Below are positions 8,116 through 24,385 of a stretch of 24,722 bases of DNA, piece after piece. This DNA comes from a virus. A program made the translations under genes and the position numbers. The notes under the pieces are model-generated. The model worked only from the letters and a program-made list of their open reading frames with translations. It had not been told where the DNA came from and searched no databases. The stretch's first letter is position 1; the number at the start of each line of letters is the position of its first letter. The stretch covers positions 1-24,722 of the IMG/VR virus record IMGVR_UViG_3300028766_000033; one strand, written 5' to 3'.

Positions 8116-8174
8116 CTCAATCCTTTCCGTCATATCCTTAGTTGCGTTGCTGCCGTCGGCCAGAGTGGACCCCG

Positions 8175-8699: not shown

Positions 8700-8707
8700 G
8701 GTTCGCC

Positions 8708-9093: not shown

Positions 9094-10422
9094 CTATAGA
9101 ACCCATTCAATTACGCAAACACCATTCGCGCCTGCGCCGCCAGCAGAGCCAGTGCTAGAAGATCCGCCACCACCAGAACCATAGGCTTGACCGGCGACAC
9201 CATTACCCGTTGTTGCAACGCCACCGCCACCGCCGCCCCAAAATGAACTGCCGCCGATGCCAGAGAATTGCGCGCCACCTTGGTTAGCATTCGCACCGCC
9301 ACCGCCACCCAATATGGATAACGTAGCATTCGTACAAGCGCCGCCGCCAGCACCGCCCACCTGACTAAGACCAGCGGTTCCAGCACCACCACCAGGTGCG
9401 GTGACCGTCGTTGCACCAAAAACCGCAATGCTGCTTCCGCCCGCTGAACCTGCACCTGACGTGCCACCCGCGCCTGCACCGCCGATCGTGATTGAGTAGT
9501 TCGTACTGGGCGACAGACCTGTCGCGATGTAGACCGCCGTGGACGCGGCGCCACCGCCCGGCGCTGCATTACCGCCACTTTGTCCACCGCCGCCGCCGCC
9601 GCCGCCCGTGATCGTGATCTTGAACTGCGTCGACGAAGTGGTGGCCGAGGGTGTCGTGAAGTTGCCGCTACTGGTGATGTTGGTGTAGTGCAGCTGACCG
9701 ACCGCATTCGCCCACTGCGGGTTAGCGCTCGAACCCTGAGTCTGCAGGAACTGACCAGATGTGCCAGGGGCCAGCACGTTCCACGCGCTCGCCCCGCGGT
9801 AGAGGACGTTCCCCTGCGTAGAGCCGATGCACGCGTCTATGATTGCCGTCAATGTGTCTGCGGAGGGGGACGCCGTGCCTCCGCTGATGTTCGCGAGGAC
9901 CGTGTTGTTCGACTGCGTGGCGAGTGCGCCAAGTGGGAGTTCACCCGCGGTCACACCCCAGAAGTTGCGCTCGTCCACGACCATAGCGTTGGTGATCGCC
10001 GTCGTCGTCGAGAGGAGGGGGGAGGCGACGGTGCCGATCTGCGCGACCGGGAAGCACCCCGCGGTGATGGTCGGGGCGGAGGGGGTGCCCGTCGTCGGCG
10101 TGCCGGTGACGATCGAGAGGACGCCGGTGAGCGCGTTGATGACCGCGCGGTCGATGCGCTTGTTGCTGCCGGAGGGCGCAGTGATGGTGCCGGACACCTG
10201 GCTGGCCACCTCCGTCAACACCGGGCTGTTGGTGCTGTTCATGATCGAACCGGCGTCCAGCGTGATCGTCATGTTCGGCGTCACAGACTGGTGCGGCAGG
10301 AACTGGTCGACCACGCGCGCGGCGGCGACTGAGTTGGCGTCGATCTGCCCGGTGTACGCGGCCGCGTTGGTCGTCGTGTGGTTCGTCTGCGTGTAGCTCG
10401 CAGTCGGGTTGGTTCCGCTCAT
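9094..10422 (-). CDS. Glycine-rich tail fibre / adhesin (442 aa)
   Basis: The N-terminal 250 residues are a beta-rich fibre region with phage-typical segments (NNTVLANISGG, NVLYRGASAWNVLAPGTSGQFLQTQG). From about 272 to the end the chain is dominated by Gly runs separated by Ala, Ser, Thr and Asn and ends GANGVCVIEWVL. This is the pattern of the phage glycine-rich domain; comparable Gly-runs in the T-even-type adhesin gp38 of phage S16 form polyglycine II bundles with receptor-binding loops. The start follows CTAGGAGAACAG, overlapping the TAG of the tail-tip gene. It is probably a distal receptor-binding fibre attached to the tail tip. Its (GCC)n run at 9587-9607 could vary Gly number without changing frame. 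Confidence 0.8.
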   Translation of the reverse strand: MSGTNPTASYTQTNHTTTNAAAYTGQIDANSVAAARVVDQFLPHQSVTPNMTITLDAGSIMNSTNSPVLTEVASQVSGTITAPSGSNKRIDRAVINALTGVLSIVTGTPTTGTPSAPTITAGCFPVAQIGTVASPLLSTTTAITNAMVVDERNFWGVTAGELPLGALATQSNNTVLANISGGTASPSADTLTAIIDACIGSTQGNVLYRGASAWNVLAPGTSGQFLQTQGSSANPQWANAVGQLHYTNITSSGNFTTPSATTSSTQFKITITGGGGGGGGQSGGNAAPGGGAASTAVYIATGLSPSTNYSITIGGAGAGGTSGAGSAGGSSIAVFGATTVTAPGGGAGTAGLSQVGGAGGGACTNATLSILGGGGGANANQGGAQFSGIGGSSFWGGGGGGVATTGNGVAGQAYGSGGGGSSSTGSAGGAGANGVCVIEWVL

Positions 10423-10434
10423 TTTTCTGTTCTC

Positions 10435-13400
10435 CTAGTTTCCTGTTGCTTGCCAGTTGATGCTGCCGCCGACGTCTGAGCCGGAGCTGTTCCACACGTG
10501 CGCGGTGAAGCCTGTGCTCGATATACCCGCCGCCGATGCAGTGAGTGCCGTGCCCGTCGTTATCGCGGTGCAGACCACGTTCGGGAGCGAGTGATACGGC
10601 GTCGCGAAGGTGACCGCCGTCCCGCCGGGGGCGATGACAGCAGGCCCCGAGCTGTTGTTCTCGATCTGCGGCGCGTCGTCGATGCTCGGCGTGAAGTCCG
10701 TGATGTAAGAGACGTTGCCGGCTGTGATCCCGCTATACGTCACCCTCGCATTGAGGTAGCGCATGGTGACGAAGCCGATGCTCCAGTTGATGTACGTGTT
10801 GGGGTCGGACCCGCCCGTCAACCACGTGTCGATAGACAACTGGAGGTTCGCCGCCGCGCCGGACTCGCCAGCCCCCAGCGTGCCGGCCATCGAAGAGTAG
10901 ACGCGCAGGCTGTCGTTGTACCCCGTGTCGACTGTGGGCGCGGTGTAGTACGCCGTGGCGACGGGGTTCGCGACCATGGCGTCGAAGATCTGCCAGCCTG
11001 TCGTGTTAAGGGACGGTGGCGAGGCGCCGGTGATGAGGCCGCCGACGGGTTCCGTCCAACCGGTGCCTAGCACCAATGGCGTGGCGTTCTGTAGCGTCTC
11101 CGAGCCACTCGACGTGCCGACGTAGACGTTCCACCCGGTGGCGGGTTGGCTGCCGCCTGGAATCGACGGCGAGGCGACAGTCAGGAGGTTGAGCGCCAGC
11201 ACAGCCAGCGAGGACTCTGAGCTGACGGTGGTCTCCCCCGTCGAGTCGACGTAGGTGATCTTGACATAGTACGTCGTGAGCCCCAGCGAACCGCCGGCCA
11301 CGCTGCCGAGCGTCGGCGCGGAGGGCGCCGAGAGCGTGGTGTAGAACCCGGCATCCTGCTGGTCCAGCGGCACGAGGACGCCCGTCCAGTGGAGGTAGAG
11401 GTTGTAGAGCGTGCCCGGCCAGGTCGGTTCCTGGGCGACCTGCGACACCAGGCTGTTCGTGTTCGTGACCACGAGCTCGACCGAGCTGACGGGTCCCAAC
11501 TGGTTGGCGATGTCGCGGCCGCGGATGTAGAAGATCCACGTGCCGGGGATGACGCTAGCATTGGTCATCTCGGTCGCGCGCGAGGCCTCTGTGAGGATTG
11601 TCGCCGTCCCGACTGCCCCGCCGACGGGGCCGTAGAGAATGTCGTAGAAGTTCAGCGCGTCGTCTGTCAAGTCGTCCCACACGAACACGACGGCGCCGCC
11701 GACCTGCGTGGCGCTGAAGTTCTGCACCGTACCCGGGAGGGGAGGCCCCTCGATCACGTGCTGGAACGGCTGCACCTCGGCCAGCGTCTGCGGGTTGCCG
11801 CCCCAGAGGTTGAACGAGAGCAGTTTGATGTAGAGCGTGAGCCCGATCTGCGCCTGGTCGTACGGGAAAGCGAGCTGAGACCCGTCGAGGCGTGCGAACT
11901 GCGACCCGGCCGGGTGGTCGGAGATCGTCGTGCCGTACATCCCACGTCGCAGGTAAGTGCCGAGGTTGTACTCGCTGCCCGTGACCAGGTTGGCAGTCTC
12001 GTACGCCACCAGCTCGTAGGAGGTCTCGGACGGGGGCGGCGCCGTGCCGCCGATCAGCCCGCCGGTCGGCTCCGTCCAGTTGGTGCCGATTGAGATCGGC
12101 GACGCGTTCTGCTTGGTCTCTGCACCGGTGCTGGTGCCCACGTAGACGTTCCAACCCGTCGCACCGGTCTGCGCGACGGGCGACGTCACCACTAGGCACG
12201 TGCTGGCCGGGAGCGAGAGGTTGTCCTCGGGCGACGGCGGCCCCTCCCCGCTCGAGAAGACGTAGGTCACCCTCGTGAAGTAGTCGGTCGCGGTCAGCGC
12301 GCCGCCCGCGATGCTGCCGAGCGTCGGGGCAGGGGGGTTGGGGTAGCCGCCCTCGAAGCACAGCGTGTGGCCGAGGTCGACGTCGTTGGTGCTCGTGGCG
12401 CTGTAGAGCTCGCCCGTCGTCGACAGGTTCACCTGGAGCGTGTCCGTCGTGTCCGGGTCGGAGCCGGACGGGAAGTCCGCGTTGTTCACGCCGATGCGCG
12501 AGCCGCCCTCGATCCTACCCATGAGGCGGTAGGTCTGGTTGTCCGTCGAGGTGTAGACGTCGCACCCGCCCCAGTTGGCGCCTCCGCCGGTCAGCAGCCA
12601 GATCTCGAGGCCGCTGTTGGAGGCGATCTGGACTGGCGCCTCGAAGACGATCGGGGCGATAGGCGCGCCCGGCGAGATGTTCGTGTTTGGGGTATACCCG
12701 GCCTTCACCTGCGTCCCGTAGATCGGTGAGGAGCCGGTGCCGGCCAGGTAGTCTTCCACGACGAGCGTGAGCGTGCTGTCCTGCTGGTTCTCCGTGATCT
12801 CCTTGATGCGTACCCAGGCCGCGCTCAGCCCGAGGTTGGGGTCCGTGATGGCGACGATGTCCATCGGGTCCAGCATGATGTAGTACCACTCGACGGTGAA
12901 GGTGTAGCTGTTGCGGACCAGTTGGCGTCCGAGCTGCATTTGCGCAGACGTGAGCGCCGGCGCGGCGCTGCAGAAGAAGTGCAGCGACTTCGAGTCCGCC
13001 GGGCGGAGGCCGTACTCGTTGATGGCCGCGTCATCCTTCGCCTCGACGATGGCGGGGTTGTATGAGTTCCCCCTGTCCAGGTACTCGACCTTGACGTCGT
13101 TGTACGCGTCGGACTGGCGCGTGCGTGTGCAGATGACTGGGTCGTCGCTGGTGAAGGACGAGGCGCCCGACCCGGATCCTTCGTTCTTGAGGAAGTCCGA
13201 GTCGGCGAGCGAGTAGATCGGCGCCGACGGCGCCGTGTATGTGTAGCCGTTCGCTGAGATCGTCGTGTCCCCGTACGGCTGCCACGTCAGCAGGCCCGAC
13301 GACCAGACGAACTCGCCGTTGAGCCCGGCCGAGAAGTCCTTGAAGAAGTCCTGCGCCGCCTGTGCCTGCGCGAATGCGGGCGAGATGAAGAGGCCGTTGG

Positions 13401-14712
13401 CGAAGGTGAATTGCTGCAGCGAGGTCAGGCTGCCGATGTTGGCCGCTGGGAACCCGACGCCGTAGCGCGGGTTCGTGAGGAAGTCTGTGAGCGAAAGGGA
13501 CGGGTCCGCGTCGACGACATCGATGATGCCGAGCAGCGCGCCGTTGTCCGCGGACGAGAACGTGTACTCGCCGTACGAGCCGTTCGCCACGCTGATGCTG
13601 AACTGCCCCTGCAGGGGTGCGCCGAGCACCTGGGCGAGCGGGTTGCCCCAGCACGTGAGCGTCGCGCCTCCCGACGCGGTCGCCGCCTGCGAGAGCGTGA
13701 GCGTGTCGGATCCGACTGAGATGATGACGGTGCCAGCGGGTATGCCCGCGGCGGTCACCAGCATGCCTGCCACCAGGTTCGCCGTGCTGCTGACGCCGGT
13801 GACGTTGACCGTCCCGTTGAGCGTGGCGGTCGGCTGGTAGATGTACGAGACGCCGGGGCCGATCGCGAGGTCGATGACCGTGACGTTCTTGCCCGCGTCA
13901 GCCACCGCGAACTGGTAGAGCCCGGCCACGCTGACCGAGTACTGACCGGTCGTCGGCCCGCTGCCGACGAGCGCGAACACGTTGCCGAGGCTGTCGACCA
14001 CGCCCGCGCTCGCCGTGCCGACCGGGTTGGCGAGGTTGCCGAGCACGACGGGGAGGGCGGTGAGGGCCTGGTAGTTCTGCGCCTGGAACTGGTACGGCGT
14101 CGCGGGTATCACCGCGGCCTCGGTGAGCGAGGATGACAGGCCGAAGTAGGACGGGGTGAACGTGTACGGGCTCCCGACGGTGTAGGTCTCGGAGACGGCG
14201 CCGGAGATCGCGCCCCGGACCTCGAAGTTGAAGTTGGGCAGTTCAGGCTGGTTGCCGAGGTTGTAGTTCGCCGACGCGGCGTACGCCATGGACGAGTATC
14301 CGAGCGCCTGGCTCGGGTCCGCGCTCGAGAGGTACGACCACGCAGGCTGCCCCTGGTACCCGTCGAAGGCGGACACGCCCTGGCTGGCCAGCGCCTCGGG
14401 CGTCTTGTTGTCCCAGAGCTCTAGGATCGCGTCGACCGGGCCCTCGCAGATGCCGAGCATGAAGCTGGCGCTGTACGAGGCGCCGGACCCGCCGGCCTTC
14501 CCGCCGCCGCCCGCGATGCCACCCTTGCCGCCCTTGCCGCTGCCTGACCCCCCGTTGTAGCTGAAGTTGCCGTACCAGATCAGGTTGCCGGCGATGCGCT
14601 GCTGCCCGTGGACGAACGGCATGGCGACGCCCTGCACGGAACTCTGGATGCGCAGCGCCGTGGCGATCGGCGTCTTGCTGTTGACCTTGCTGCCCTTGCT
14701 CAGGATCGCCAT
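10435..14712 (-). CDS. Tail-tip / host-specificity protein (Phage-tail_3 type, 1425 aa)
   Basis: Central tail-tip protein contacting the host. It starts KGSKVNSKTPIATALRIQSSVQGVAMPFVHGQQRIAGNLIWYGNF, then a Gly-rich loop (about 55-78) and SFMLGICEGPVDAI, the usual start of this family. Residues about 204-285 and 356-403 carry two GQY-type beta modules, separated by another Ig-like segment (about 290-350). From about 400 to 660 is the Phage-tail_3 core (LTDFLTNPRYGVGFP, DVKVEYLDRGNSYNP, PMDIVAITDPNLGLSAAWVRIKEI). Two 98-100-residue copies (797-894, 1134-1233) flank fibronectin-like segments. The start follows the NlpC/P60 gene by one base. This is the longest gene in the window. Confidence 0.85.
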   Translation of the reverse strand: MAILSKGSKVNSKTPIATALRIQSSVQGVAMPFVHGQQRIAGNLIWYGNFSYNGGSGSGKGGKGGIAGGGGKAGGSGASYSASFMLGICEGPVDAILELWDNKTPEALASQGVSAFDGYQGQPAWSYLSSADPSQALGYSSMAYAASANYNLGNQPELPNFNFEVRGAISGAVSETYTVGSPYTFTPSYFGLSSSLTEAAVIPATPYQFQAQNYQALTALPVVLGNLANPVGTASAGVVDSLGNVFALVGSGPTTGQYSVSVAGLYQFAVADAGKNVTVIDLAIGPGVSYIYQPTATLNGTVNVTGVSSTANLVAGMLVTAAGIPAGTVIISVGSDTLTLSQAATASGGATLTCWGNPLAQVLGAPLQGQFSISVANGSYGEYTFSSADNGALLGIIDVVDADPSLSLTDFLTNPRYGVGFPAANIGSLTSLQQFTFANGLFISPAFAQAQAAQDFFKDFSAGLNGEFVWSSGLLTWQPYGDTTISANGYTYTAPSAPIYSLADSDFLKNEGSGSGASSFTSDDPVICTRTRQSDAYNDVKVEYLDRGNSYNPAIVEAKDDAAINEYGLRPADSKSLHFFCSAAPALTSAQMQLGRQLVRNSYTFTVEWYYIMLDPMDIVAITDPNLGLSAAWVRIKEITENQQDSTLTLVVEDYLAGTGSSPIYGTQVKAGYTPNTNISPGAPIAPIVFEAPVQIASNSGLEIWLLTGGGANWGGCDVYTSTDNQTYRLMGRIEGGSRIGVNNADFPSGSDPDTTDTLQVNLSTTGELYSATSTNDVDLGHTLCFEGGYPNPPAPTLGSIAGGALTATDYFTRVTYVFSSGEGPPSPEDNLSLPASTCLVVTSPVAQTGATGWNVYVGTSTGAETKQNASPISIGTNWTEPTGGLIGGTAPPPSETSYELVAYETANLVTGSEYNLGTYLRRGMYGTTISDHPAGSQFARLDGSQLAFPYDQAQIGLTLYIKLLSFNLWGGNPQTLAEVQPFQHVIEGPPLPGTVQNFSATQVGGAVVFVWDDLTDDALNFYDILYGPVGGAVGTATILTEASRATEMTNASVIPGTWIFYIRGRDIANQLGPVSSVELVVTNTNSLVSQVAQEPTWPGTLYNLYLHWTGVLVPLDQQDAGFYTTLSAPSAPTLGSVAGGSLGLTTYYVKITYVDSTGETTVSSESSLAVLALNLLTVASPSIPGGSQPATGWNVYVGTSSGSETLQNATPLVLGTGWTEPVGGLITGASPPSLNTTGWQIFDAMVANPVATAYYTAPTVDTGYNDSLRVYSSMAGTLGAGESGAAANLQLSIDTWLTGGSDPNTYINWSIGFVTMRYLNARVTYSGITAGNVSYITDFTPSIDDAPQIENNSSGPAVIAPGGTAVTFATPYHSLPNVVCTAITTGTALTASAAGISSTGFTAHVWNSSGSDVGGSINWQATGN
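11014..11313 (-). repeat. Second copy of duplicated fibronectin-like module (residues 1134-1233)
   Basis: Matches the copy at 12031-12324 in protein sequence: both open with TLGS(I/V)AGG, contain TGWNVYVGTS(T/S)G and end with WTEP(T/V)GGLI. The DNA has diverged, so the duplication is not recent. Confidence 0.8.
12031..12324 (-). repeat. First copy of duplicated fibronectin-like module (residues 797-894)
   Basis: See the partner at 11014-11313. The two copies are 240 residues apart in between, with an unrelated segment (LVTGSEYNLGTYLRRGMYG region and a fibronectin-like domain) separating them. Confidence 0.8.
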
Positions 14713-14713
14713 G

Positions 14714-15154
14714 TCAGCCCCACCTGGAGAAGAACTTGACGGCGTAGCCGGAGAGGCGGCCGGTGTCGGCCCGCTCCTCCAGCACCATCTTGGCCTCGCG
14801 CGAGGCGTGCACGATGAGCGGCCACTGCGTGACGACGCCGCCGTGTGCGAAGACGCGGCCGACCTTGAACAGCGCGATGTCGCCGGGCCCCGGTCCCCGC
14901 ACCTCGTGCGTGTGCCGCAGGACGGTCTCCATGTACCTCTCCACGCCGCGGTGGAGGAAGAAGTCTGGTGTGTACTCGGTGATGGGCATCTCGGGCGACA
15001 GCCCGCACCCGCGGAACACGAGGTAGACCAGCTGGGCGCAGTCGACGCCGCCGGCCTTGCCCTTGGCCCTGCCGCGGTGCGCGTACTTCGTGCCCACCCA
15101 CGACTTCGCCTCTGCCACGACGGCCTGGCGCTGGAGTTCGTCCTCGAAGGTCAT
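14714..15154 (-). CDS. Tail-associated NlpC/P60 peptidoglycan peptidase (146 aa)
   Basis: Cuts peptide cross-links in peptidoglycan during DNA entry and sits at the tail tip. The catalytic Cys39 is in AGGVDCAQLVY (34-44), His104 in VFAHGGVV, and a third polar residue His116 in PLIVHAS. PGPGDIALFKVGR (89-101) is the typical strand before the catalytic His. Length and position match the GTA gp14-type cell wall peptidase. The ATG overlaps the hub gene stop (ATGA at 15151-15154); a long in-frame extension upstream is ruled out because it reads the hub gene in the wrong frame. Confidence 0.9.
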   Translation of the reverse strand: MTFEDELQRQAVVAEAKSWVGTKYAHRGRAKGKAGGVDCAQLVYLVFRGCGLSPEMPITEYTPDFFLHRGVERYMETVLRHTHEVRGPGPGDIALFKVGRVFAHGGVVTQWPLIVHASREAKMVLEERADTGRLSGYAVKFFSRWG

Positions 15155-16119
15155 GTCGCCGCCTCCGGCACTGGGATGAACGGCTGTCCGCCGAAGTTCT
15201 GGGTGTTGCTGAAGACGGAGCAGGTGCCGAAGCTCTTGTCGCAGCCAGGGTACGCGGTGAACGCGTCCCCCGGGGCGACGGGGAACGGCATCGGCGCGAT
15301 GAGGGTGAAGGTTCCTGGCGAGCCGGCGACCCACGACCTGACCCCGCGCGAGAAGCCCGCGTTCTGCCCGCTCGTGAAGACGATGCGCCCGAGCGCGTAG
15401 GTGCCGGACCCGCTGGGGGCCGCGACGGCCGAGGTGAGAATGTTGGAAGTCGTGCCCGCTGCCGCGGTGGCGGACTTCGCGAAGGACGACGCCTGGAGCG
15501 TGCACCCGCTGTCGAACAGCGTCCAGCGGCAGCCCGACTGGAAGAGGTTGCGCGGCATCGTCTGGTTGAGCAGCTCGAGGTGGCTGTTGATGTTGACGAC
15601 GCAGTTGGTCCTGCCCATGTCCACCTCGGCCACGCGCCCGGTGAAGATGTTCACGACGCCGAGCGGGGAGATGGACATGGCGCCCTGCGGCATGCCGGAC
15701 GACCTGTTGTCCCAGTATGCCCTGTCGATCTGCACCGTCGCGCCGTCGAGGACGCCCGCGCGGAGCGCCGCGAGCCAGAACACCCCGCCGATCGTGCTGC
15801 CGGCGTAGCTGTTGGCCGCGTTGGGGAGCCGCGGCATCGCCACCACCTGCCACGTGTCCACGTCCACCCCGACCTTCCAGTGGCCCGTCGCCTTGTTGTT
15901 GAGCTGGTCGAACTGCACGTCCTTGGACGTGTACGTGACCGGCGAGGCGTAGGGCACGAGGACGTCGACGTCCGCGGTCGTGTAGGTCAGCGGGTTGCCC
16001 GAGTTGAGCGTGCCGGCGAGGTTGAACGTGTAGAGGTCGCAGGCGAAGGCCGACTGCGGCTTGCTGTTCAGGAACGCGAGCAGCGCCCCGGCGCTCGTCT
16101 CGTACTTCGCGGTCTTCAT
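15151..16119 (-). CDS. Tail hub / baseplate protein, DUF2163 (GTA gp13-like), 322 aa
   Basis: The N-terminal domain (1-170, with MKTAKYETSAGALLAFLNS and DLYTFNLAGT) and C-terminal domain (FTSGQNAGFSRGVRSW, APGDAFTAYPGCDKSFGTCSVFSN, NFGGQPFIPVPE) are those of the DUF2163 family found in GTA-type tails. Four Cys (SGCRW, SGCTL, PGCDK, GTCSV) are spaced like the cluster that holds an iron-sulfur centre in lambda gpL-type minor tail proteins; a metal cluster here is inferred. It probably forms the trimeric hub below the distal tail protein. ATGA overlaps tie it to both neighbours. Confidence 0.85.
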   Translation of the reverse strand: MKTAKYETSAGALLAFLNSKPQSAFACDLYTFNLAGTLNSGNPLTYTTADVDVLVPYASPVTYTSKDVQFDQLNNKATGHWKVGVDVDTWQVVAMPRLPNAANSYAGSTIGGVFWLAALRAGVLDGATVQIDRAYWDNRSSGMPQGAMSISPLGVVNIFTGRVAEVDMGRTNCVVNINSHLELLNQTMPRNLFQSGCRWTLFDSGCTLQASSFAKSATAAAGTTSNILTSAVAAPSGSGTYALGRIVFTSGQNAGFSRGVRSWVAGSPGTFTLIAPMPFPVAPGDAFTAYPGCDKSFGTCSVFSNTQNFGGQPFIPVPEAAT

Positions 16120-16730
16120 ATCACCTTCATCCCTTCCAGCTCGACCTTCTTGAGGTTCCAGAAGCGGAACAGGAAGTTCTCGAAGTCGAGGCTGTCCGCG
16201 CTGAAGCGGCAGGGCCAGTTGTAGTTGAAGGTCGCCGTGATGGCGTGTCCCGCGACGGGGGCGACGGTGAACTGGACACCGTACGTGAAGCCCCAGTTGG
16301 GGTCGGTGAGGTAGGTGAACGCGACGGTGGGGGTGCCCGCGTTGTAGACGGTGACCGACGCCTGCGTGACGTCCTGGATGGGTTCGACGAACCCGCCGAG
16401 GGCCCGCACGAAGATGAACTGCGTCTGGGTGCCGTTGCCGACGCCGAGCGACTGGTTCGCGACGGAGTTGTCGTCGGGGTCGTTGAAGTGGAAGGGGAGG
16501 GCCGTGCCGGCCACGCTGTTGAAGAAGCCGAGGAGGGTCTGCCAGTCGGTGTTCGAGCCGGCGCTGCCGAGGTAGCTGAAGCTGAGCGACCACTTGTAGA
16601 GGGGGTACGTGAACAGCTGGAGCACGGTCTTGACGCCGCTGATGGCCTGCTGCGGGATGCTCGACCACAGTGGCGAACGCTTGACCGGGTACTCGAGGCC
16701 ACTGAGGGTCGGGAATGTGGGTATCGTCAT
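16116..16730 (-). CDS. Distal tail protein, DUF2460 (GTA gp12-like), 204 aa
   Basis: Forms the ring that joins the tail tube to the tip. The family pattern is plain: FPTLSGLEYPVKRSPLWSS (6-24), TYPLYKWSLSFSYLG (41-55), DWQTLLGFFNSVAGTALPFHFNDPDDN (62-88), and a C-terminal WPCRFSADSLDFENFLFRFWNLKKVELE. Length about 200 is normal for the family. It lies between the tape measure and the hub, which is the standard order, and overlaps the hub start by ATGA. Confidence 0.88.
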   Translation of the reverse strand: MTIPTFPTLSGLEYPVKRSPLWSSIPQQAISGVKTVLQLFTYPLYKWSLSFSYLGSAGSNTDWQTLLGFFNSVAGTALPFHFNDPDDNSVANQSLGVGNGTQTQFIFVRALGGFVEPIQDVTQASVTVYNAGTPTVAFTYLTDPNWGFTYGVQFTVAPVAGHAITATFNYNWPCRFSADSLDFENFLFRFWNLKKVELEGMKVI

Positions 16731-16731
16731 G

Positions 16732-18903
16732 TCAGTACGCTCCCCTCACGCTCGGGTTGTTGACCATGTACGCCCCGATGTTCCTGGACAGCTGCCGCAG
16801 GGTCGAGGGGTTGTTGAGGGCCGCCATGACGCTCTTGCTGTCCATGGCGGTGATGTTGATGTTGGCCGACGCGCCGCCGGAACCGCCGGACGGCGAGTAG
16901 GGCGCGCCCTGGCCCGAGGCCGGTATGATCTGCTCGCCCTGGTGGACCATCGCGAGGCCCGTCTGCGGGACGTAGTTGGTGCCCACGTCGAAGGACGCGA
17001 CGCCCGCCCCGAAGGCCTCGACCGCGACGAAGGCCGCCGCGGCGGCGGGCGGTGCAAGCAACCACCCGACGTAAGGGATCTCGGCGACGTCGGCGTACAC
17101 CGCGGCCGCGGCCTTCGCCGCGCTGCCGCTGATGCTGGTCTTGTTCGCCGTGGCCTCCGCGGCGGCGCCGACGCTGGCCGACGTGACCGCAGAGGTCGTG
17201 ACCGCCGTGTCGGCCGCTATGGCCGCCTGCACCTTGGCGAGCTGGGACTGCGCCCACTCCACGGTGCCCTTCACGACGACGTCGTCGATGAACTTCAGGA
17301 TCAGGTTGTCGAACAGCTTGTACATGGCCTGCTGCCACGTCTGCGTGCCTTGGAGCACGCCGTTCACCATCCCGTCGACGCCCGACGTGATCGACTTGAA
17401 GAACGAGTCGTAGGGCTTCTCCTGCGCCGCCGCGCCCTGCGTGGCGATCTTGTTCAGGTCCTCCATGTGCTTCGCGTAGAGGATCTTGATCTGGTCGTAG
17501 ACCTTCTGCTTCTGTGCGACGGTCTGGTCGTCGATGGCCAGCTCCTGCTGGAGCGCGGCGTAGTTGAGGTTGTACTCCTCGTTGGCGAACTGGGTCTCTG
17601 CGTCGAGCTCCTGTTGCTTGGAGATCTGGTGCGTGGCGACCTCCGCCTGGAGCGTGTCCTTCTGCGACTGCAGGCCGATCTTGTCCAGCGTCAGCTGGGT
17701 CTGGATCTGCTCGCGCTGCGCGTCCTCCGCGTCCTTGGCGGCCTTCGCCCCATCCGCAGCACTGCTATCTGGCGTCCCGACCCCTCCGACCTGCTGCGAG
17801 GCGTTCTTGGTGGGTCCGTACGTAGGCTGGGGGTTGTTGATCTGCTGGATGACCGCATTCGTCTTCTCGAGGTTCGCCTGCATCCTGTCCGTGGCTTCGG
17901 CGACGATCTCGTCAATCTGGTCCATCCCGTCTTTCCAGGCCTGCTTGCCTCCTGTGAAGTCGAACTTCACGAAGTGGGAGGCGGCATCCGCGGCGGCGCC
18001 GAACAGCGTGACCAGTTGGACTAACTCCGCGCCGATGAGCTCGCAGGTCTCCTCGGCGGCGAGCTTCAGGATCTCAAACGCGGTGGCGAGTCCGGCCACC
18101 ATGTCATGGAAGATCCCTCCAGTCTTGACGTTCTCGTTCAGCTCCTCGAGGAAGTGCTGCATGCTCTCCGCGCCGTCGTCGATGGCGGGTTTCAAGATCT
18201 CCACGACAGAGATGCCAACACCCTCGAACGCCTTGCCCGTGATGGTGAGCTGCTGGTGGGTCTGCTCGAGCTGCTGCGCCTGGAACTCGGTGAGGAGCGC
18301 GCCGGTCTCCTCGAGCTTCTGGCCCATCTCGTCGAGCCCCGCGCTGCCGTCCTTGAGGGCAGCAGCCATCGTGACGATGCCCCGGCCGCCGACGATGCTG
18401 AGGTCGGCCGTGCGCTGTATGCTGGGACCGAGTCGCTCAAATCCATCATCTACGAGCTTGAGTATCTCATCAGGACTGGAGTTTCGAATCTGGTCGAGGC
18501 TGATGCCGAACCTGGTGAACGCGTCGTAGGCGGCGCCAGACCCACTGGAGGCGGTGAGCATGTTGCGCTCGAGCCTCGCCATCGTGGCGCCGACCCTGTC
18601 CGCGCTCCCGCCGGTGAGCTCCATCGCGAATCCGAGTTTCTGCGTGGTCTCCGCGCTGAGGCCGGTCATCGCCTCGGTGCGCTCGACCTGTTCGCCCAAC
18701 TCAGTGATGTGGTTGATGAACTCGACCACCTTGTCGATGGCGAACGCCTCGACGATCATGTTGCCGAGTTCCTCGAACTGTGCGCCCGCGCCCTCCGCCG
18801 ACTCGCCTACACTCTGGACCTGCTGCTTCGCCTGCTCCGACGCTGCGCCGAGCTCGGACGTGTCCCCGCCGAACCTGACATTGACTTGATCGTCGTCGGC
18901 CAT
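16732..18903 (-). CDS. Tail tape measure protein (723 aa)
   Basis: Sets tail length. The N-terminal region (1-60) is a polar helix; FAIDKVVEFINHITELGEQVERTEAMTGLSAETTQKLGF (54-92) and GGRGIVTMAAALKDG are typical tape measure segments, followed by a membrane-like helix region (about 265-300). A long Gln-rich coiled coil follows (about 385-480). The Ala-rich end contains GTNYVPQTGLAMVHQGEQIIPASG, the usual C-terminal signature of tape measure proteins. At about 0.15 nm per residue, the length predicts a tail near 110 nm. The gene follows the frameshifted chaperone pair, as expected. Confidence 0.9.
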   Translation of the reverse strand: MADDDQVNVRFGGDTSELGAASEQAKQQVQSVGESAEGAGAQFEELGNMIVEAFAIDKVVEFINHITELGEQVERTEAMTGLSAETTQKLGFAMELTGGSADRVGATMARLERNMLTASSGSGAAYDAFTRFGISLDQIRNSSPDEILKLVDDGFERLGPSIQRTADLSIVGGRGIVTMAAALKDGSAGLDEMGQKLEETGALLTEFQAQQLEQTHQQLTITGKAFEGVGISVVEILKPAIDDGAESMQHFLEELNENVKTGGIFHDMVAGLATAFEILKLAAEETCELIGAELVQLVTLFGAAADAASHFVKFDFTGGKQAWKDGMDQIDEIVAEATDRMQANLEKTNAVIQQINNPQPTYGPTKNASQQVGGVGTPDSSAADGAKAAKDAEDAQREQIQTQLTLDKIGLQSQKDTLQAEVATHQISKQQELDAETQFANEEYNLNYAALQQELAIDDQTVAQKQKVYDQIKILYAKHMEDLNKIATQGAAAQEKPYDSFFKSITSGVDGMVNGVLQGTQTWQQAMYKLFDNLILKFIDDVVVKGTVEWAQSQLAKVQAAIAADTAVTTSAVTSASVGAAAEATANKTSISGSAAKAAAAVYADVAEIPYVGWLLAPPAAAAAFVAVEAFGAGVASFDVGTNYVPQTGLAMVHQGEQIIPASGQGAPYSPSGGSGGASANINITAMDSKSVMAALNNPSTLRQLSRNIGAYMVNNPSVRGAY

Positions 18904-18904
18904 C

Positions 18905-19147
18905 TCAGTCCTCTACATCTGGCAGCATCGCCCGCGGCGCGCCGGTGGTCTTGGATTCTTTAGGCTTGTACCCCACGTGACCCGCCATCAGCAGGTGGGT
19001 CGGCGGGTGCTTCGCCCAGTATCTGTTCAGCGCCTCGAGACGCTGGAATGTGAGATTGTCTTCGACGTAGTCCCATGTCCAACCGATGGACTGGCAGACG
19101 TGCGCTGCTAGTTCGTCGAGGTCGACGGACTTCTGGTCTCTTCCCCC
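18905..19147 (-). CDS. Tail assembly chaperone, GT extension made by -1 frameshift
   Basis: This frame has no good start of its own; it is expected to be reached by -1 slippage at 19141-19147, giving a 185-residue fusion (19461 to 18905) of 106 residues of G and 79 new residues. The extension (SVDLDELAAHVCQSIGWTWDYVEDNLTFQRLEALNRYWAKHPPTHLLMAGHVGYK) has the W-Y-LT...L..YW.KHPP layout of the T part of lambda GT-type chaperones. The fusion binds the tape measure protein during tail assembly. The frame is also open upstream to 19393, so the exact slip point is inferred. Confidence 0.75.
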   Translation of the reverse strand, partial: GGRDQKSVDLDELAAHVCQSIGWTWDYVEDNLTFQRLEALNRYWAKHPPTHLLMAGHVGYKPKESKTTGAPRAMLPDVED

Positions 19148-19461
19148 GCTGCACCGCCGTCTTCCGCGGCCTTCATGCCAGACTGCGTCGCGATGACGGG
19201 TAGGGCGGTCAGCATCTCGTTCTGCGAGATCGGCAGGTCCGTGAACGCGTCGTAGGTCAGGCCGGGCGAGACCGGGGCCACCGCGGTGAACACGACGAGC
19301 GCCAGGTCGTCCATCGCCTCCGCGGTCATGCCGGTGCGCGACAGCGCCCTCAGGCGGCCGAACGCCGGGATCACGGTGCGGAGCTGCTTCCACACGAGGG
19401 GTTTCACGTCGTAGTTGACCCCGGCCAGCGTGACCTGGGGCAGTTGGGTTGCATCGTTCAT
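19108..19461 (-). CDS. Tail assembly chaperone G (117 aa)
   Basis: The non-shifted product of the chaperone locus. It begins MNDATQLPQVTLAGVNYDVKPLVWKQLRTVIPAFGRLR, a small beta-hairpin then helix as in G-type chaperones that use the formula G-V-x-Y-x-V. The ATGA overlap with the 107-aa gene stop fixes the start. Residues 107-117 (EETRSPSTSTN) are a disordered end beyond the slip point. Position between major tail protein and tape measure is diagnostic for this pair even in the absence of strong sequence similarity. Confidence 0.8.
   Translation of the reverse strand: MNDATQLPQVTLAGVNYDVKPLVWKQLRTVIPAFGRLRALSRTGMTAEAMDDLALVVFTAVAPVSPGLTYDAFTDLPISQNEMLTALPVIATQSGMKAAEDGGAAGEETRSPSTSTN
19141..19147 (-). 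promoter_or_regulatory. Candidate -1 ribosomal slippery site (GGGGGAA)
   Basis: Read on the leftward strand the zero-frame codons are GCG GGG GAA. Slipping back one base keeps the GGG pairing perfectly at the P site and moves into the GT frame, which then reads GGA AGA GAC CAG. It lies eleven codons before the G stop, the usual distance. Confidence 0.6.
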
Positions 19462-19781
19462 GTGTTTAGGTTCCTTGCTACTGTCATCATGTTGTCTGGG
19501 CCGACGACCTCCACCTGGATGTCGCGGTATTCCGGCTCTTTGCTGAGGTTGAGTTTGGGCAGGACCTGCAGGCAGGTGATCTGGTAACGCCGGGCCGACT
19601 CGATGTCGGACGCGACGATCATGGGCAGCTGCCTGAGGAAGATGTAGTTCTTGATCTTGCGGAGCACGAAGGAGAAGACGCGCATGACCTCGTTCTCTGT
19701 GGTGTGGAACGCCTGCGCCACCTGCGGCACGGGCACGCCGTTGATGAGGTTCGAGAAGATGATCTTCTGGTTGTCTTGCAC
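19458..19781 (-). CDS. Hypothetical protein between major tail protein and chaperone (107 aa)
   Basis: GTG start preceded by GGAGGAG with seven-base spacing. Residues 1-45 look like a small helix-turn-helix or chaperone-type fold (IIFSNLINGVPVPQVAQAFHTTENEVMRVFSFVLRKI); the PVPQVAQAFHTTENEV part reads like the two helices of an HTH. The remainder (YQITCLQVLPKLNLSKEPEYRDIQVEVVG) is beta. Its position in the tail operon argues for a tail or assembly protein rather than a transcription factor, though the HTH resemblance stands. The stop overlaps the G start by ATGA. Confidence 0.65.
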   Translation of the reverse strand: MQDNQKIIFSNLINGVPVPQVAQAFHTTENEVMRVFSFVLRKIKNYIFLRQLPMIVASDIESARRYQITCLQVLPKLNLSKEPEYRDIQVEVVGPDNMMTVARNLNT

Positions 19782-19823
19782 GCGTCTACTCCTCCGCTGG
19801 TTCCAATTGTCTGTCGCCGGGTG

Positions 19824-20594
19824 TTAGCTGGTGACCGGCACGCTGACGAGGCCGAGGTTGCCGGCCGAGTTCACGGTGCAGCTGAAGTCGAGCTCCGGCA
19901 TGGAGAAGTCGCCGATCTTCGTGTCGTACGCCTTCAGGCCCTGCGGGATGCACGAGTAGAGGAGGAAGTTGGTCTCGAGGCTGTTGTAGGACGAGCCCAT
20001 GACGCACTGGAAGGAGTTCGCCGCGCCCGCGCTCGCGTTGGACAGCAGGACGCTGGCACCGGAGGTCGACACGGTCGAGGTGTACGAGATGTTCACGCCG
20101 CCCGCGACCGCGGTGTCGGCCGCCGCGAAGGTGTAGACGCCGGCCGAGTACGAGTACTGGCCGACCGAAGGCGAGGACGCCACGTTGGTCATCACGATGC
20201 CCGTCGCGCCGTAGGTCACGCCGAGGTCCAGGACGAAGTTCGCGCTGTTCGTCACGGTGACCTGGTACGGCGTGCTCGGGATCGCGTGGTTCTCGGCCGG
20301 GTTGATGATCGTCTGGCCGGCGGTCATCAGCGAGTTGTTCGGGCCGCCGATGAAGTCGCGGATCTGGCGCGGCTGGTAGTCGGCGAACTTGAGCTTGCCC
20401 GTCACCTTCACCTGGCTGCGGCCGACGGCCACTGGGAAGATGTTCTGGCCGAAGAGCTCCTTGGTCGTCGCCTTGAGGTCGATCGACGCGGACTGCAGGA
20501 TCTTGGGCTGCACCGGGGTGGGGTTGGTGTCGCCGTCGATCATGTAGGCGAAGCCGGAGTTGAAGACTAGTGCCGGGGGGTTGTTGGCGGTCAT
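19824..20594 (-). CDS. Major tail (tube) protein with inserted beta module (256 aa)
   Basis: Stacked as hexamers it forms the tail tube. The ATG at 20594 overlaps the previous stop and has AAGGAGAACCCC. The tube fold is visible on both sides of an insert: FAYMIDGDTNPTPVQPKILQSASIDLKATTKELFGQNIFPVAVGRSQVKVTGKLKFADYQ at the start (15-74), and FQCVMGSSYNSLETNFLLYSCIPQGLKAYDTKIGDFSMPELDFSCTVN at the end (194-241). In between, residues 107-175 form a GQY-type module shared with two other structural proteins here. Its position before the chaperone and tape measure is standard. Confidence 0.85.
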   Translation of the reverse strand: MTANNPPALVFNSGFAYMIDGDTNPTPVQPKILQSASIDLKATTKELFGQNIFPVAVGRSQVKVTGKLKFADYQPRQIRDFIGGPNNSLMTAGQTIINPAENHAIPSTPYQVTVTNSANFVLDLGVTYGATGIVMTNVASSPSVGQYSYSAGVYTFAAADTAVAGGVNISYTSTVSTSGASVLLSNASAGAANSFQCVMGSSYNSLETNFLLYSCIPQGLKAYDTKIGDFSMPELDFSCTVNSAGNLGLVSVPVTS

Positions 20595-20797
20595 TTGGGG
20601 TTCTCCTTGTTGGGGTTGTCGTGTTCCGCTGGTCTGCTCACGCCCAGCGAGCGCTTCAGGTCGTCGCGCGCTATGCAGAGCGCGGCGTGTAGTGCCGAGC
20701 CCGGCAGCACCTGGTGGAAGTGCCTGTCGAACCAGGTGTCGATGGCCCGCTCGCGCGCGCGGCGCGCCTGCTCGCCCGCCCTCGCCATCCTGTCCAT
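20591..20797 (-). CDS. Small structural-operon protein (68 aa)
   Basis: Unrecognised, basic and helical (Arg-rich RMARAGEQARRARERAIDTWFDRHFH, then ALHAALCIARDDLKRSLGV). I placed the start at the ATG at 20797, which shares a base with the upstream TGA (TGATG); a GTG at 20800 is equally possible. Its stop overlaps the major tail protein start. Size and place suggest a tail-completion or assembly factor, without sequence evidence. Confidence 0.6.
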   Translation of the reverse strand: MDRMARAGEQARRARERAIDTWFDRHFHQVLPGSALHAALCIARDDLKRSLGVSRPAEHDNPNKENPK

Positions 20798-21243
20798 CAC
20801 ATGAACAGGACCTTGATCGGCACCACGGCGACGCCGTTGCCGTCGAAGTCGCCGGGGACCTTGACGACGTCGCCGTCGATGTAGCAGTTGGTGACCAGGC
20901 CGCCCAGCGTCTGCTGGCCGTTCGGCCCGGGCGCCAGGACTCCCCCACTGACGGGGTCGATCGCGTCGATCAGGTTGTTCAGCGCGGTCATCGGCACCAC
21001 GTTCGGGTCCTGCCCGACGCTGATGAAGATGAACACGTCGACGTCCATCGTGCGGATGGCGGGCGTTATGTTCTTGCCCTTGGCGTGCTGCTCCTTGTGC
21101 TCGACCATGAACAGCGCGGGTTTGTCGAGCGGCCCCACCTGGTCGATGGTCTGCAGCCTGCGCGAGGACGTCACGTAGTTGCCCGAGGTGAGCAGCAGCG
21201 CGAAGAGCGCCGTCGCCACCTGTTCCCTCGTCGCTGTCGTCAT
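20797..21243 (-). CDS. Tail terminator / completion-like protein (148 aa)
   Basis: Layout: an N-terminal helix (TREQVATALFALLLTSG), the VTSSRRLQTIDQVGPLDKPALFMVEHKEQ segment (24-52), strands with RTMDVDVFIFISVG (64-77), a helix NLIDAID, and a C-terminal strand VPIKVLFM. This fits the tail terminator fold that caps the tail and joins it to the head, and the gene stands in the usual place between the HK97-gp10-like gene and the major tail protein. No signature residue settles it. It overlaps both neighbours by 3-4 bases. Confidence 0.65.
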   Translation of the reverse strand: MTTATREQVATALFALLLTSGNYVTSSRRLQTIDQVGPLDKPALFMVEHKEQHAKGKNITPAIRTMDVDVFIFISVGQDPNVVPMTALNNLIDAIDPVSGGVLAPGPNGQQTLGGLVTNCYIDGDVVKVPGDFDGNGVAVVPIKVLFM

Positions 21244-21686
21244 AGCTTGGATCCCTCCTCGACTGCGTTCGTTATGCCCTCCACGATGTCGTCCCGCATG
21301 TCGGCGAGCGACGAGCGCATGAAGGAGCGCTCTGGGTAGTGGTACGTCACGTCGTGCGGCGCCCGCAGGTTCTTGCCCCAGGCCACCGACATCCGGCGGG
21401 TGAACGTCGCGCCGTACTCGTGTATCCGCCCGTACACCACGTCGCCCGACGAGTAGACCGTCCCGACGACGCCGGTGGCGGACGACTCGACAGTCTCCTG
21501 TATGCTGCGGCCGAGGTCGCCGGTCACCCGGTTGAGCACCTGGCCCAGGAGCTTGTCCTGGATCACGTGGTTGCGCAGCTTCTGCGCGAGCGTGTTTATC
21601 GCGACCTCCAGCCTCGCGCGCACGCGGTCGGGCAGGGAGTCGAGCCTCGCTAGTACCGCCGCGTCGTCTACCTGGACCGTGAACAT
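21240..21686 (-). CDS. HK97 gp10-like head-tail joining protein (148 aa)
   Basis: Contains the gp10-like family pattern: a start helix (DDAAVLARLDSLPDRVRARLEVAINTLAQKLRNHV), then SIQETVESSATGVVGTVYSSGDVVYGRIHEYGA (65-92) where the Y-x-x-x-x-E-Y-G turn is typical, and RSFMRSSLADMRDDIVEGI near the end. These proteins belong to the neck or tail completion group. The ATG shares one base with the stop of the adaptor gene (TGATG). Frames extending upstream to 23369 are antisense/frame shadows of the capsid gene. Confidence 0.8.
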   Translation of the reverse strand: MFTVQVDDAAVLARLDSLPDRVRARLEVAINTLAQKLRNHVIQDKLLGQVLNRVTGDLGRSIQETVESSATGVVGTVYSSGDVVYGRIHEYGATFTRRMSVAWGKNLRAPHDVTYHYPERSFMRSSLADMRDDIVEGITNAVEEGSKL

Positions 21687-22501
21687 CAGACGGGCAGGAA
21701 CTTCCGGTAGCCGGAGAGCATCTGGTCGATGTGCTTCGGGATGGCGGACAGGTCGTAGGCGAACGTCTCGTTGCCCCCGACGGACTTGGACTTCTGGCCG
21801 ATGCGCTGCTTGTAGCTGTAGCGCTCGCCCACCCACTCTATGACCGCCTCCTCGAGGCCGCCCGGGACGAAGCTGTAGCTTATGCGCACCGCGGCCCCGG
21901 CGTCGGACGCGTTGAACCCGTAGACCACCGTGCCGTCGGACCCGACGTTCACCGTGTACTGGCCGGCCGCCGGCGAGGACGCCACCGGCGCGAGCGCGGC
22001 GCCCGTCGAGGCGTAGGAGATGCCGTCGTCCTGGCACCACGAGCCCAGCGGGGGCTTCACCTTCACGAGGTAGTTGCCTGGGCTGACCGTCGCCGCCTGG
22101 GCGGACACGCAGTAGCCGGCCTGGTAGACGATCTGCACGTTGTTCTTGCCGCGCGCGAAGCCGTACCCGTTCAGGGTCAGCGACTGCGGCGCGCCGGAGC
22201 TGGTGCCGTCCCACGTCTCGAGCGTGTAGCCCGTCTGCCCGAAGGTGAGCGAGGACGGGACCACCTGGGGTCCGACCTGGAGCGACGTCACGCTGACCAC
22301 GGGCCAGTTGCGGAGGGTCATGCGCTGGTTGCCCACGCCGTCGCGGAGCTCCGTGTACGTCGCCCTCGCGATCGAGGGGCGCTGGAGCTCGTTCAGGGCC
22401 GCCTGGCTGATCTGGGTGATGAGCCTGGAGAGGAGCGTGTCGTCGTTGTTCGTCGTCACGTTCAGCCAGTTCTTCACCGCGGGGAGCGAGGTCAGGTCCA
22501 T
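21686..22501 (-). CDS. Head-tail adaptor (HK97 gp6-like) with inserted beta module (271 aa)
   Basis: Forms the ring under the portal. The N-terminal part is the gp6-like helical domain (LPAVKNWLNVTTNNDDTLLSRLITQISQAALNEL, 6-39, with the usual D-D-xLL-x-LI motif) followed by RATYTELRDGVGNQRMTLRNWPVVSVTSL (46-74), and the C-terminal helix EEAVIEWVGERYSYKQRIG continues the family. Residues 141-215 are an insertion of the GQY-type module, which makes the protein longer than usual adaptors (about 100-200). Ribosome binding site is weak (AGAGAGAAAAAC); it follows the structured spacer behind the capsid gene. Confidence 0.8.
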   Translation of the reverse strand: MDLTSLPAVKNWLNVTTNNDDTLLSRLITQISQAALNELQRPSIARATYTELRDGVGNQRMTLRNWPVVSVTSLQVGPQVVPSSLTFGQTGYTLETWDGTSSGAPQSLTLNGYGFARGKNNVQIVYQAGYCVSAQAATVSPGNYLVKVKPPLGSWCQDDGISYASTGAALAPVASSPAAGQYTVNVGSDGTVVYGFNASDAGAAVRISYSFVPGGLEEAVIEWVGERYSYKQRIGQKSKSVGGNETFAYDLSAIPKHIDQMLSGYRKFLPV

Positions 22502-22603: not shown

Positions 22604-24385
22604 TTAGCCGTTCGCGATGCCGCAGATCACGCCGAGGCAGAACGGTGCGTACACGGCGAGGACTTCCTCGGTGTAGACGCCGAACTGGTACTCGCGGGTC
22701 ACGTCGGCCCACTCCTTGCTGTAGTAGTCGCGGCGCGTCAGGACCTCGGCGATGTTGGGCGTCGCGTTGGTCTTGAAGTACGGCGGCAGGGTCTTGGCGT
22801 AGCCGATCAGCGTGCCGGGCGGCAGCGTCGGGTGCACCATGATCGGGATCTTGCGACCGCCCGGGATGTACGGGTTGTGGTAGAACGAGATCACGCCGTA
22901 GCCCGTCACGTCGAAGCCGTCCGAGTCGCCGAGGACGCGGAGCAGGGGCGCGCTGGAGCCGTTCAGGACGCGCGCCGTGATGTTGGCGAGCTCCTGGGCG
23001 TTCACGTAGATCACGTCGACCGTCACCTTGTACTGGTTCCACATGTTGGCCAGCATCGCGTCGATCTCCTTGACGTTGCCGCTGCCGCCCGTGGTGAGCG
23101 TCGCGCCCGCCAGGTTGTTGACGTACGCGTTCTGCGGGCTCAGGCTCGTGTTGTTGAACGCCTGGGTCAGCAGCCCGTCGAAGCCGGTCACCTGGCCGGT
23201 GCCGCCGCCGAGGGTCCCGTTGTTGACCGAGAAGTCGCCCACCGTGAGGTTGGAGAGCAACTGGCCGGTCGTCTGGGGGGCCGCGGTGAAGGAGTAGCTG
23301 GGGACCGTGGTCACCGCCTGGAGGTACAGGGCGCTCGTCGAGGACGAGGTGCCGACGTACCACGCCCACGCCAGTTCGCCCGTCTTCGGGGTCACCGTGA
23401 AGGTGGCGGTGATGTTGGAGCTGGGGGCCGCCGTGGTCGTGGAGATGGCGGACGCCTGGCCGCAGCCGCGGTTGACGGTCATGGTCTTGGAGTCGAGGGT
23501 GGTGATGACCGACTGCTGGTTCACGCCCACCGTGTTGGAGACGGGGATCAGCGGGGTGTTGGTCGTCGAGTTCAGCCCGTTCGAGAGCACGAAGTCGCGG
23601 TAGCCCTCGTAGGTGAGGCCGATCGCGGCGGCGTAGAACGTGCCGGAGAACGAGCCCGTGCCCGTGGCGGAGCCGACAGGCTTGTTGGCCGTGCCCAGGA
23701 TCAGGCTGAAGTTGCCGCCCAGGAGGGCGTCCTCTTCCTTGACCATCAGCGTCTCGAGCGCGAAGAAGTGGCCGGCGGCCAGCGCGTCCTCGAAGCCCTG
23801 CGAGGCGGACTCAGCCTCCCAGGTCACGTTGCCGTCCACGCCGAGCGAGGCGTAGGTGGCGGACGCGTTGAGGGCGTTGATGCTGAGCAGCGGGGCGCGC
23901 TGGCCCTCGTTCAGCCACGCGCAGGCGGGCGCGCCGCCGCGGGTGTAGGACGAGGAGGAGGCGATGATCGCCTTCCAGTGGGCCAGGGTGCCCGGGCTCG
24001 GGCGCTTGACGCGCGGGAGCGACTCGCGGATCGGCGAGAGCCACGGCACCAGGTGGAGCGACGGGCTGCGCAGGTCGTACGGCGTCAGGTTGCTGCCGGT
24101 GCTGATCGAGGCCTTGGCGAGCTGGTCCGCCGTGGCGGTGCCCTTCTGGACCGCCGCGCGGGCGGTCATCGCCTCCGCGTACGGCTTCAGCACGGCCTTC
24201 ATAACCTCCATGCGGAGCTGCTTCGCCTGCGGGGTCTCGGACGCGACGAACACGCCGGTCTTCTCGATCTCGTTGGCGGAGACCTTGGGCCCCTCGAAGT
24301 CGAAGTCGTTGTACGCCTTCACGAGGCGGTCCGCGAGTTGCGGGTCCGTGTCATGGGGCAGCGCGTTCTTGTTCATCTTGGTCAT
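22604..24385 (-). CDS. Major capsid protein, HK97-fold type (593 aa)
   Basis: Builds the head shell. No signal peptide; the N-terminal 100 residues are polar and helical (delta-domain-like). PSPGTLAHWKAI and APACAWLNEGQRAPLL (129-166), EESASQGFEDALAAGHFFALETLMVKEEDALLGG (190-224), the SFSGTFYAAAIGLTYEGYRDFVLS segment and the C-terminal IPIMVHPTLPPGTLIGYAKTLPPYF...VTREYQFGVYTEEVLAVYAPFCLGVICGI fit the capsid P- and A-domain order. At 593 residues it is longer than common HK97-fold capsids (300-400); residues about 305-400 look like a fibronectin/Ig-like insert (TFTVTPKTGELAWAWYVGTSSST...YSF). GAGGAAACGACT precedes the ATG. Confidence 0.8.
   Translation of the reverse strand: MTKMNKNALPHDTDPQLADRLVKAYNDFDFEGPKVSANEIEKTGVFVASETPQAKQLRMEVMKAVLKPYAEAMTARAAVQKGTATADQLAKASISTGSNLTPYDLRSPSLHLVPWLSPIRESLPRVKRPSPGTLAHWKAIIASSSSYTRGGAPACAWLNEGQRAPLLSINALNASATYASLGVDGNVTWEAESASQGFEDALAAGHFFALETLMVKEEDALLGGNFSLILGTANKPVGSATGTGSFSGTFYAAAIGLTYEGYRDFVLSNGLNSTTNTPLIPVSNTVGVNQQSVITTLDSKTMTVNRGCGQASAISTTTAAPSSNITATFTVTPKTGELAWAWYVGTSSSTSALYLQAVTTVPSYSFTAAPQTTGQLLSNLTVGDFSVNNGTLGGGTGQVTGFDGLLTQAFNNTSLSPQNAYVNNLAGATLTTGGSGNVKEIDAMLANMWNQYKVTVDVIYVNAQELANITARVLNGSSAPLLRVLGDSDGFDVTGYGVISFYHNPYIPGGRKIPIMVHPTLPPGTLIGYAKTLPPYFKTNATPNIAEVLTRRDYYSKEWADVTREYQFGVYTEEVLAVYAPFCLGVICGIANG

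Follow-up and report, generated by a model that had tools for sequence, protein, structure and literature searches.

A beta-rich module constant in the tail tube protein and optional in the adaptor, tip and hub proteins of related siphophages

The 24.7-kb virus record IMGVR_UViG_3300028766_000033 from IMG/VR, analysed over its whole length of 24,722 nucleotides (hereafter the window), encodes a homologous beta-rich module of about 80 residues in three of its virion proteins, i.e., the major tail (tube) protein (MTP), the head-tail adaptor and the tail-tip protein. The module is a constant part of the MTP and an optional insertion in the other two proteins. We consider it probable, at roughly 60%, that it represents an accessory domain which braces the tail tube and which was copied long ago to other rings and hubs of the virion. 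Phage tails commonly bear extra beta domains whose role is debated, adhesion and reinforcement both having been proposed. A single family that the tube always contains, and that occurs facultatively at known positions in adaptor, tip, hub and distal tail proteins, constitutes a large natural experiment on this question. The structural genes lie on the minus strand, and the host proteins and their module copies are as follows:

19824-20594, minus strand: MTP, 256 aa (PHROG 8234, E=3e-36; structure model with a predicted local distance difference test score, pLDDT, of 90)
20061-20306, minus strand: module copy in the MTP, residues ~97-178 (E=2e-34 with the profile of modules from other phages; module pLDDT 95-98)
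21686-22501, minus strand: head-tail adaptor, gp6-like, 271 aa (PF05135, E=3e-7, above the cut-off; PHROG 442 head-tail adaptor, E=2e-15)
21869-22111, minus strand: module copy in the adaptor, residues ~131-211 (MTP-only profile, E=7e-17; relatives exist that lack exactly this stretch; model pLDDT 95)
10435-14712, minus strand: tail-tip/baseplate hub protein, gene transfer agent (GTA)-megatron-like, 1425 aa (PF13550 Phage-tail_3, E=1e-23; PF23666 Rcc01698_C, E=6e-8; PHROG 1101, E=2e-87)
13867-14130, minus strand: module copy 1 in the tip, residues ~195-282 (MTP-only profile, E=3e-10; PHROG 8234, E=6e-10)
13510-13653, minus strand: module copy 2 in the tip, C-terminal half, residues ~354-401 (MTP-only profile, E=7e-7; contiguous counterpart in the related locus L078)

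Homology of the four copies was established with a profile of 81 modules, all taken from MTPs of phages other than that of the window, which was searched against the 231 open reading frames (ORFs) of the window. This profile returned the MTP (111.9 bits, 2e-34), the adaptor (55.4 bits, 7e-17), the first tip copy (34.0 bits, 3e-10) and the second tip copy (23.3 bits, 7e-7), while the next-best ORF scored 3.9 bits and the decoys, comprising 500 shuffled tip sequences and all reversed ORFs, reached 7.7 bits at most. A profile built from adaptor copies only recovered the same four places, the public PHROG 8234 profile matched adaptor residues 135-211 (E 1e-9) and tip residues 234-278 (6e-10) in addition to the MTP, and tblastn within the record recovered three of the four, in the MTP, in the adaptor and at the first tip position. 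An initial annotation of this DNA had described one beta segment reused in these four places, and these cross-gene matches bear out both the places and the notion of a single homologous module in proteins of different fold. The core of 45-80 residues given there was correctly located, but the full module extends to ~80 aa and begins further upstream, at a first strand with the consensus 'EAxTVPxxPYxVTV'; the elements follow in the order EAxTVP strand, PYxVTV, xFxxDxGVxY, xLTxVASxP, GQYSV, GxYTF, AADAG turn and VxISYxY. The second tip copy is likewise present, yet it consists of the C-terminal half and, compared with L078, is preceded by a nested and unrelated 55-aa domain. Sharing of VASSPxxGQY by the adaptor and the MTP, which had been pointed out as a direct link, was confirmed, although a relaxed form of this motif fits 65/82 MTP and 13/26 adaptor copies and is thus family consensus and no mark of direct transfer. 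Adaptor copies also bear gene-specific signatures, e.g., 'PxGxWxxD'. The best-conserved positions of the module are Gly, Pro, Tyr, Phe and Asp, which look like the core of the fold.

The distribution of the module among relatives differs markedly between host proteins. In the MTP it was found in 81/81 complete proteins of a set assembled with patterns from the N-terminus only, i.e., outside the module; this set replaced an earlier count of 91/92, which was biased by search patterns that fell inside the module. It was also present in 20/20 MTPs from bacterial genomes (Alpha-, Beta- and other Proteobacteria, Acidobacteria) and in MTPs of isolated Acinetobacter, Brevundimonas and Pseudomonas phages, including Pseudomonas phage KT1; in Brevundimonas phage Strzyga, the adaptor has a copy as well as the MTP. 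The module is therefore an integral and constant part of the MTP family. In locus L050, two adjacent MTP genes (9989-10726 and 10757-11491) both contain the module, a possible duplication of the tail tube gene.

Among the adaptors of the IMG/VR loci, 28/80 possess the module and 52/80 do not, the former measuring ~272 aa and the latter ~188 aa; the adaptor of L046 appears to hold a diverged copy that was missed by the profile. The insertion site is exact in the alignment, between YTAGY and VPxD, and places the module after the final strand of the beta (attachment-type) domain, ahead of the next helix. Fourteen of 47 tip proteins carry one to four copies, and the gap between the N-terminal anchor and Phage-tail_3 is 262-470 aa in these as against mostly 144-182 aa in tips without it. 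The profile search across phage proteins that the initial annotation had proposed also located the module in two further classes, namely 4/56 BR0599 hubs (gap of 115-118 aa, versus mostly 32-49 aa without it) and one DUF2460 distal tail protein, that of L024, so that several classes of virion protein are represented. In the adaptor and the tip the module is thus a true optional insertion, as originally described, whereas the MTP, which had been included in that description, carries it invariably. Whether the adaptor carries the module is statistically independent of whether the tip does (both, 4 loci; adaptor only, 8; tip only, 12; neither, 28; Fisher p=1.0). A tblastn search of 50,697 phage records produced no match with the adaptor copy and six matches only with the MTP copy, which suggests that the family occurs mainly in metagenomic phages.

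The copies appear to have separated long ago. In a tree of the modules they cluster by host gene, with 7 label changes compared to a mean of 48.5 after shuffling, and adaptor copies are no closer to the MTP copy of their own phage (34.1% identity, n=24) than to those of other phages (34.3%, n=2082), the rank of the own MTP copy being scattered from 2 to 78 of 81. Since the copies group by gene and the own-phage MTP copy is no closer, the spread between genes is old. An approximately unbiased (AU) test does not reject the hypothesis that all adaptor copies descend from one ancestor (p=0.65). A backbone tree of 109 adaptors, from which the module was left out, requires 3 changes to account for its presence and places 29/34 module-bearing adaptors in one supported clade. 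Repeated MTP-to-adaptor transfer, as the positions of L052 and L085 in the first module tree had suggested, is not claimed in view of this AU result. Judged by these comparisons, the earlier proposal that the module had moved between genes holds in the sense that it was copied at some point in the distant past, but not as recent or ongoing movement.

AlphaFold2 models built from the locus alignments, with sequences of GenBank phages left out, indicate that the module comprises six to seven strands and a helical turn. The MTP was modelled with the confidence given above, and the adaptor model attained a pLDDT of 95 with a predicted template modelling (TM) score of 0.88. The predicted secondary-structure elements are equivalent in order in the two proteins, with E111-113, E120-128, E146-150, E153-156, H158-162 and E167-181 in the MTP, and E145-148, E153-163, E181-186, E192-196, a turn at 198-200 and E204-213 in the adaptor. 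Structure prediction had been put forward as a means by which the segments might prove to be integral, unrelated parts of each fold; the shared element order argues against unrelated segments, and the module is integral in the MTP only. According to Foldseek, the MTP model is predicted to adopt a tail tube fold: it matched the solved tail tubes of SPR, YSD1, Chi and JBD30 with E-values of 2e-10 to 1e-4, the best solved match being the SPR tail tube protein 8xkn (E 2e-10, TM 0.64/0.67), followed by YSD1/Chi (7e-9). Tube-only proteins such as that of R4C (8gtb) score a TMq of ~0.36 against the model, and the SPR match should, judging from these scores, therefore extend beyond the tube domain. 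In the MTP model the module follows helix 75-81, precedes strand 195-203 and is borne by a neck of two strands (E91-103, E167-181).

This position provides the closest parallel with known systems. Domain 2 of the YSD1 tail tube protein has been described as 'wrapping around adjacent subunits ... like a latch' (PMC7385642), and BS2 of SPR likewise latches adjoining tube subunits (PMC10973363). Both YSD1/Chi domain 2 and SPR BS2 are beta-rich and occupy the same spot of the tube fold as the MTP module, after helix alpha1 and before the outer-sheet strands, via a two-strand neck; the likeness extends to the sheathless siphophage tails and to the whole-chain Foldseek match. They differ in that their occurrence is described as restricted to Chi-like phages, and in the publications consulted they are not reported from adaptor, hub, distal tail or tip proteins.

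On the reading preferred here, the two end strands of the module, which appear side by side, would allow it to be spliced into a beta-hairpin or a strand-helix junction while leaving the host fold undisturbed. Its constant home would be the tail tube protein, where it would stand in place of YSD1 domain 2 or SPR BS2, and where it most likely folds outward, packs on the next subunit and thereby girds the hexameric ring of a tail that has no sheath. Certain lineages would long ago have acquired additional copies at fixed sites of the adaptor, the megatron-like tip, the BR0599 hub and the DUF2460 distal tail protein, in which the module may play a similar bracing or collar-filling role fitted to each ring. 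In RcGTA, the beta attachment domain of the adaptor touches the capsid around the portal (PMC7296036); the adaptor insertion directly follows the corresponding domain and should thus lie at the outer collar. A broader form of this proposal, in which a single beta cassette serves as a general-purpose brace of phage rings, constant in the tube and deployed again at set hairpin positions in assemblies ranging from the 12-fold collar of the neck to the trimeric hub and tip, every copy being adapted to its own ring, is offered as tentative, and we regard it as somewhat doubtful.

Several observations weigh against the bracing role. At the sequence level, similarity to YSD1 domain 2 or SPR BS2 was not detected: an MTP profile (A6) returned no PDB hit at E<=10, and the module profile matches no tail tube chain in the PDB. 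The equivalence consequently draws on position and fold comparison, and the Foldseek match of the MTP provided whole-chain scores without residue ranges. The structure models are monomers, in which packing on a neighbouring subunit is not visible, and the tandem copies in tip proteins, of which L008 has as many as four, exceed the needs of a simple latch. As to homologues of known structure, PDB profile searches yielded no credible candidate, and a weak match to 8vjh_B, the distal tail protein of Chi (E 0.28), was dropped because it vanished with a larger profile. Most hits of a BFVD fold search with the adaptor were other gp6-like adaptors; the module was not isolated in that search.

The best surviving alternative, which we nevertheless consider unlikely, is that the module is an exposed immunoglobulin (Ig)-like adhesin that weakly binds sugars of the cell envelope or mucus and is multiplied along the virion for avidity, essentially the surface display function suggested in the initial annotation. 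Phage Ig-like domains have often been speculated to bind sugars (PMC8718954; PMC9022992), the tip copies occur in tandem, and the hub and distal tail protein of RcGTA carry insertion domains that resemble oligosaccharide-binding folds (PMC7296036), and in some relatives the module enters the hub and distal tail protein. Against this, a Pfam scan of 78 module copies found no match to a sugar-binding family, no residues are conserved beyond the apparent core, the adaptor at the neck would be a poor site for adsorption, and the tube copy is constant and placed like a bracing domain. The independent presence in adaptor and tip, together with the gene-specific signatures and the lack of shared conserved residues outside the core, is better explained by host-specific interfaces than by a common ligand. 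A common sugar or mucus binder is accordingly unsupported here, while the tip, hub and distal tail copies may yet bind such ligands, because their RcGTA counterparts have oligosaccharide-binding-like domains.

Slightly less probable still is that the module is a mobile passenger, neutral or of slight use, one of a number of insertion-tolerant beta domains spread by recombination with no common job. Its optional presence in adaptor and tip would be in keeping with this, as would at least three other beta-type domains (M2, M3 and M4, described below) scattered over the adaptors, tips and distal tail proteins of the same loci; however, the module is fixed in every MTP seen, its core is conserved through long vertical inheritance by gene, and gains or losses in the adaptor have been few. 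That the segments are unrelated and alike merely through the richness of phage structural proteins in G, S, T, A and V is very improbable: pairwise identity among the window's own copies is low (25-34%), but chance similarity is refuted by the leave-out profile with its shuffled and reversed decoys, by homologues that lack exactly the segment and by the common element order of two confident models.

Sharing of Ig-like domains (Big_2, I-set, FN3) among virion proteins is already known (Fraser et al. 2006, as cited in PMC9022992 and PMC10276861), with one family occurring in several proteins by what is thought to be horizontal spread, and the module resembles them in being shared. It differs in being internal to the MTP, in contrast to Ig-like domains added C-terminally or by frameshift, and in reaching the head-tail adaptor, which is not among the five protein classes listed in the literature. 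The alignment of diverse module copies was too variable for a pattern search, and the MTP and adaptor alignments were used in its place. The Pfam scan recovered no Big_2, I-set or FN3 match and no convincing family among the 78 copies, the best being DUF11 (1e-3, in 10/78) and Big_9 (0.02, in one). Going by these profile searches, the module is an accessory beta domain without a Pfam entry. A siphophage adaptor with an extra beta domain, regarded by its authors as structural and not adsorptive (PMC10276861), resembles the module-bearing adaptor, although in that case the extra domain is the N-terminal attachment domain itself, whereas the module is an added insertion after an attachment-type domain. 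The phages carrying the module are related soil and proteobacterial or acidobacterial phages, and matched pairs with and without it would permit direct tests of what such domains do.

With regard to the host proteins, the adaptor profile (A7) matches the head completion protein of T5/DT57C (2e-8) and the RcGTA adaptor Rcc01688 (5e-4), and outside the module the adaptor is homologous to the T5-type, DT57C and RcGTA adaptors. The tip protein is related to the GTA megatron through Phage-tail_3 and Rcc01698_C only, and it missed the NCBIfam GTA_megatron equivalog cut-off (109 bits versus 800). PHROG 8234, listed as of unknown function, corresponds to the MTP family of the window and includes the module, but carries no tail tube annotation and does not set the module apart as a domain of its own; its member in the window is, by structural modelling and fold search, a tail tube protein, and the present results would annotate the family as such. 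The genes follow the order PHROG 13692 protein, gp6-like adaptor, small neck genes, MTP, a tape-measure-like gene, the DUF2460 distal tail protein, the BR0599/phiJL001_Gp84-type hub and the Phage-tail_3/Rcc01698_C tip protein, a tail gene order of the GTA-like siphophage type. The 593-aa PHROG 13692 protein (22604-24385), of unknown function, is placed where a major capsid protein would be expected; a Pfam scan of this protein matched nothing.

Three further domains were observed in these loci. M2, whose sequence includes '..VTGVSSTANLVAGMLVTAAGIPAGTVIISV..TLSQAATASG..', is the nested domain directly before tip copy 2. M3, of ~100 aa ('APTLGSxAGGxLxxxxYxxxxTY..ATGWNVYVGTxSG..'), occurs twice in the window tip:

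13654-13818, minus strand: M2, unrelated 55-aa repeat domain, tip residues 299-353 (profile match of 68 bits)
12034-12330 and 11014-11319: M3 copies, tip residues 795-893 and 1132-1233

M2 is also found in the adaptor of L050 (ORF 7852-8796, residues 129-184), in L050 ORF 9254-9913 and in other structural-region ORFs of relatives, and M3 occurs once inside the adaptor of another phage (L089 ORF 7021-8076, residues 116-217). M4, a beta-type domain containing '..LPAALSPNTNYFIQSV..GGPAITL..', is present in L136 ORF 795-1688 (residues 178-247), which encodes a divergent protein resembling adaptors, at the TAGY^VP site also used by the main module, and in the distal tail protein of L024 (ORF 16328-17689), in tandem with the main module. 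The TAGY^VP site of the adaptor thus looks like a general insertion hotspot.

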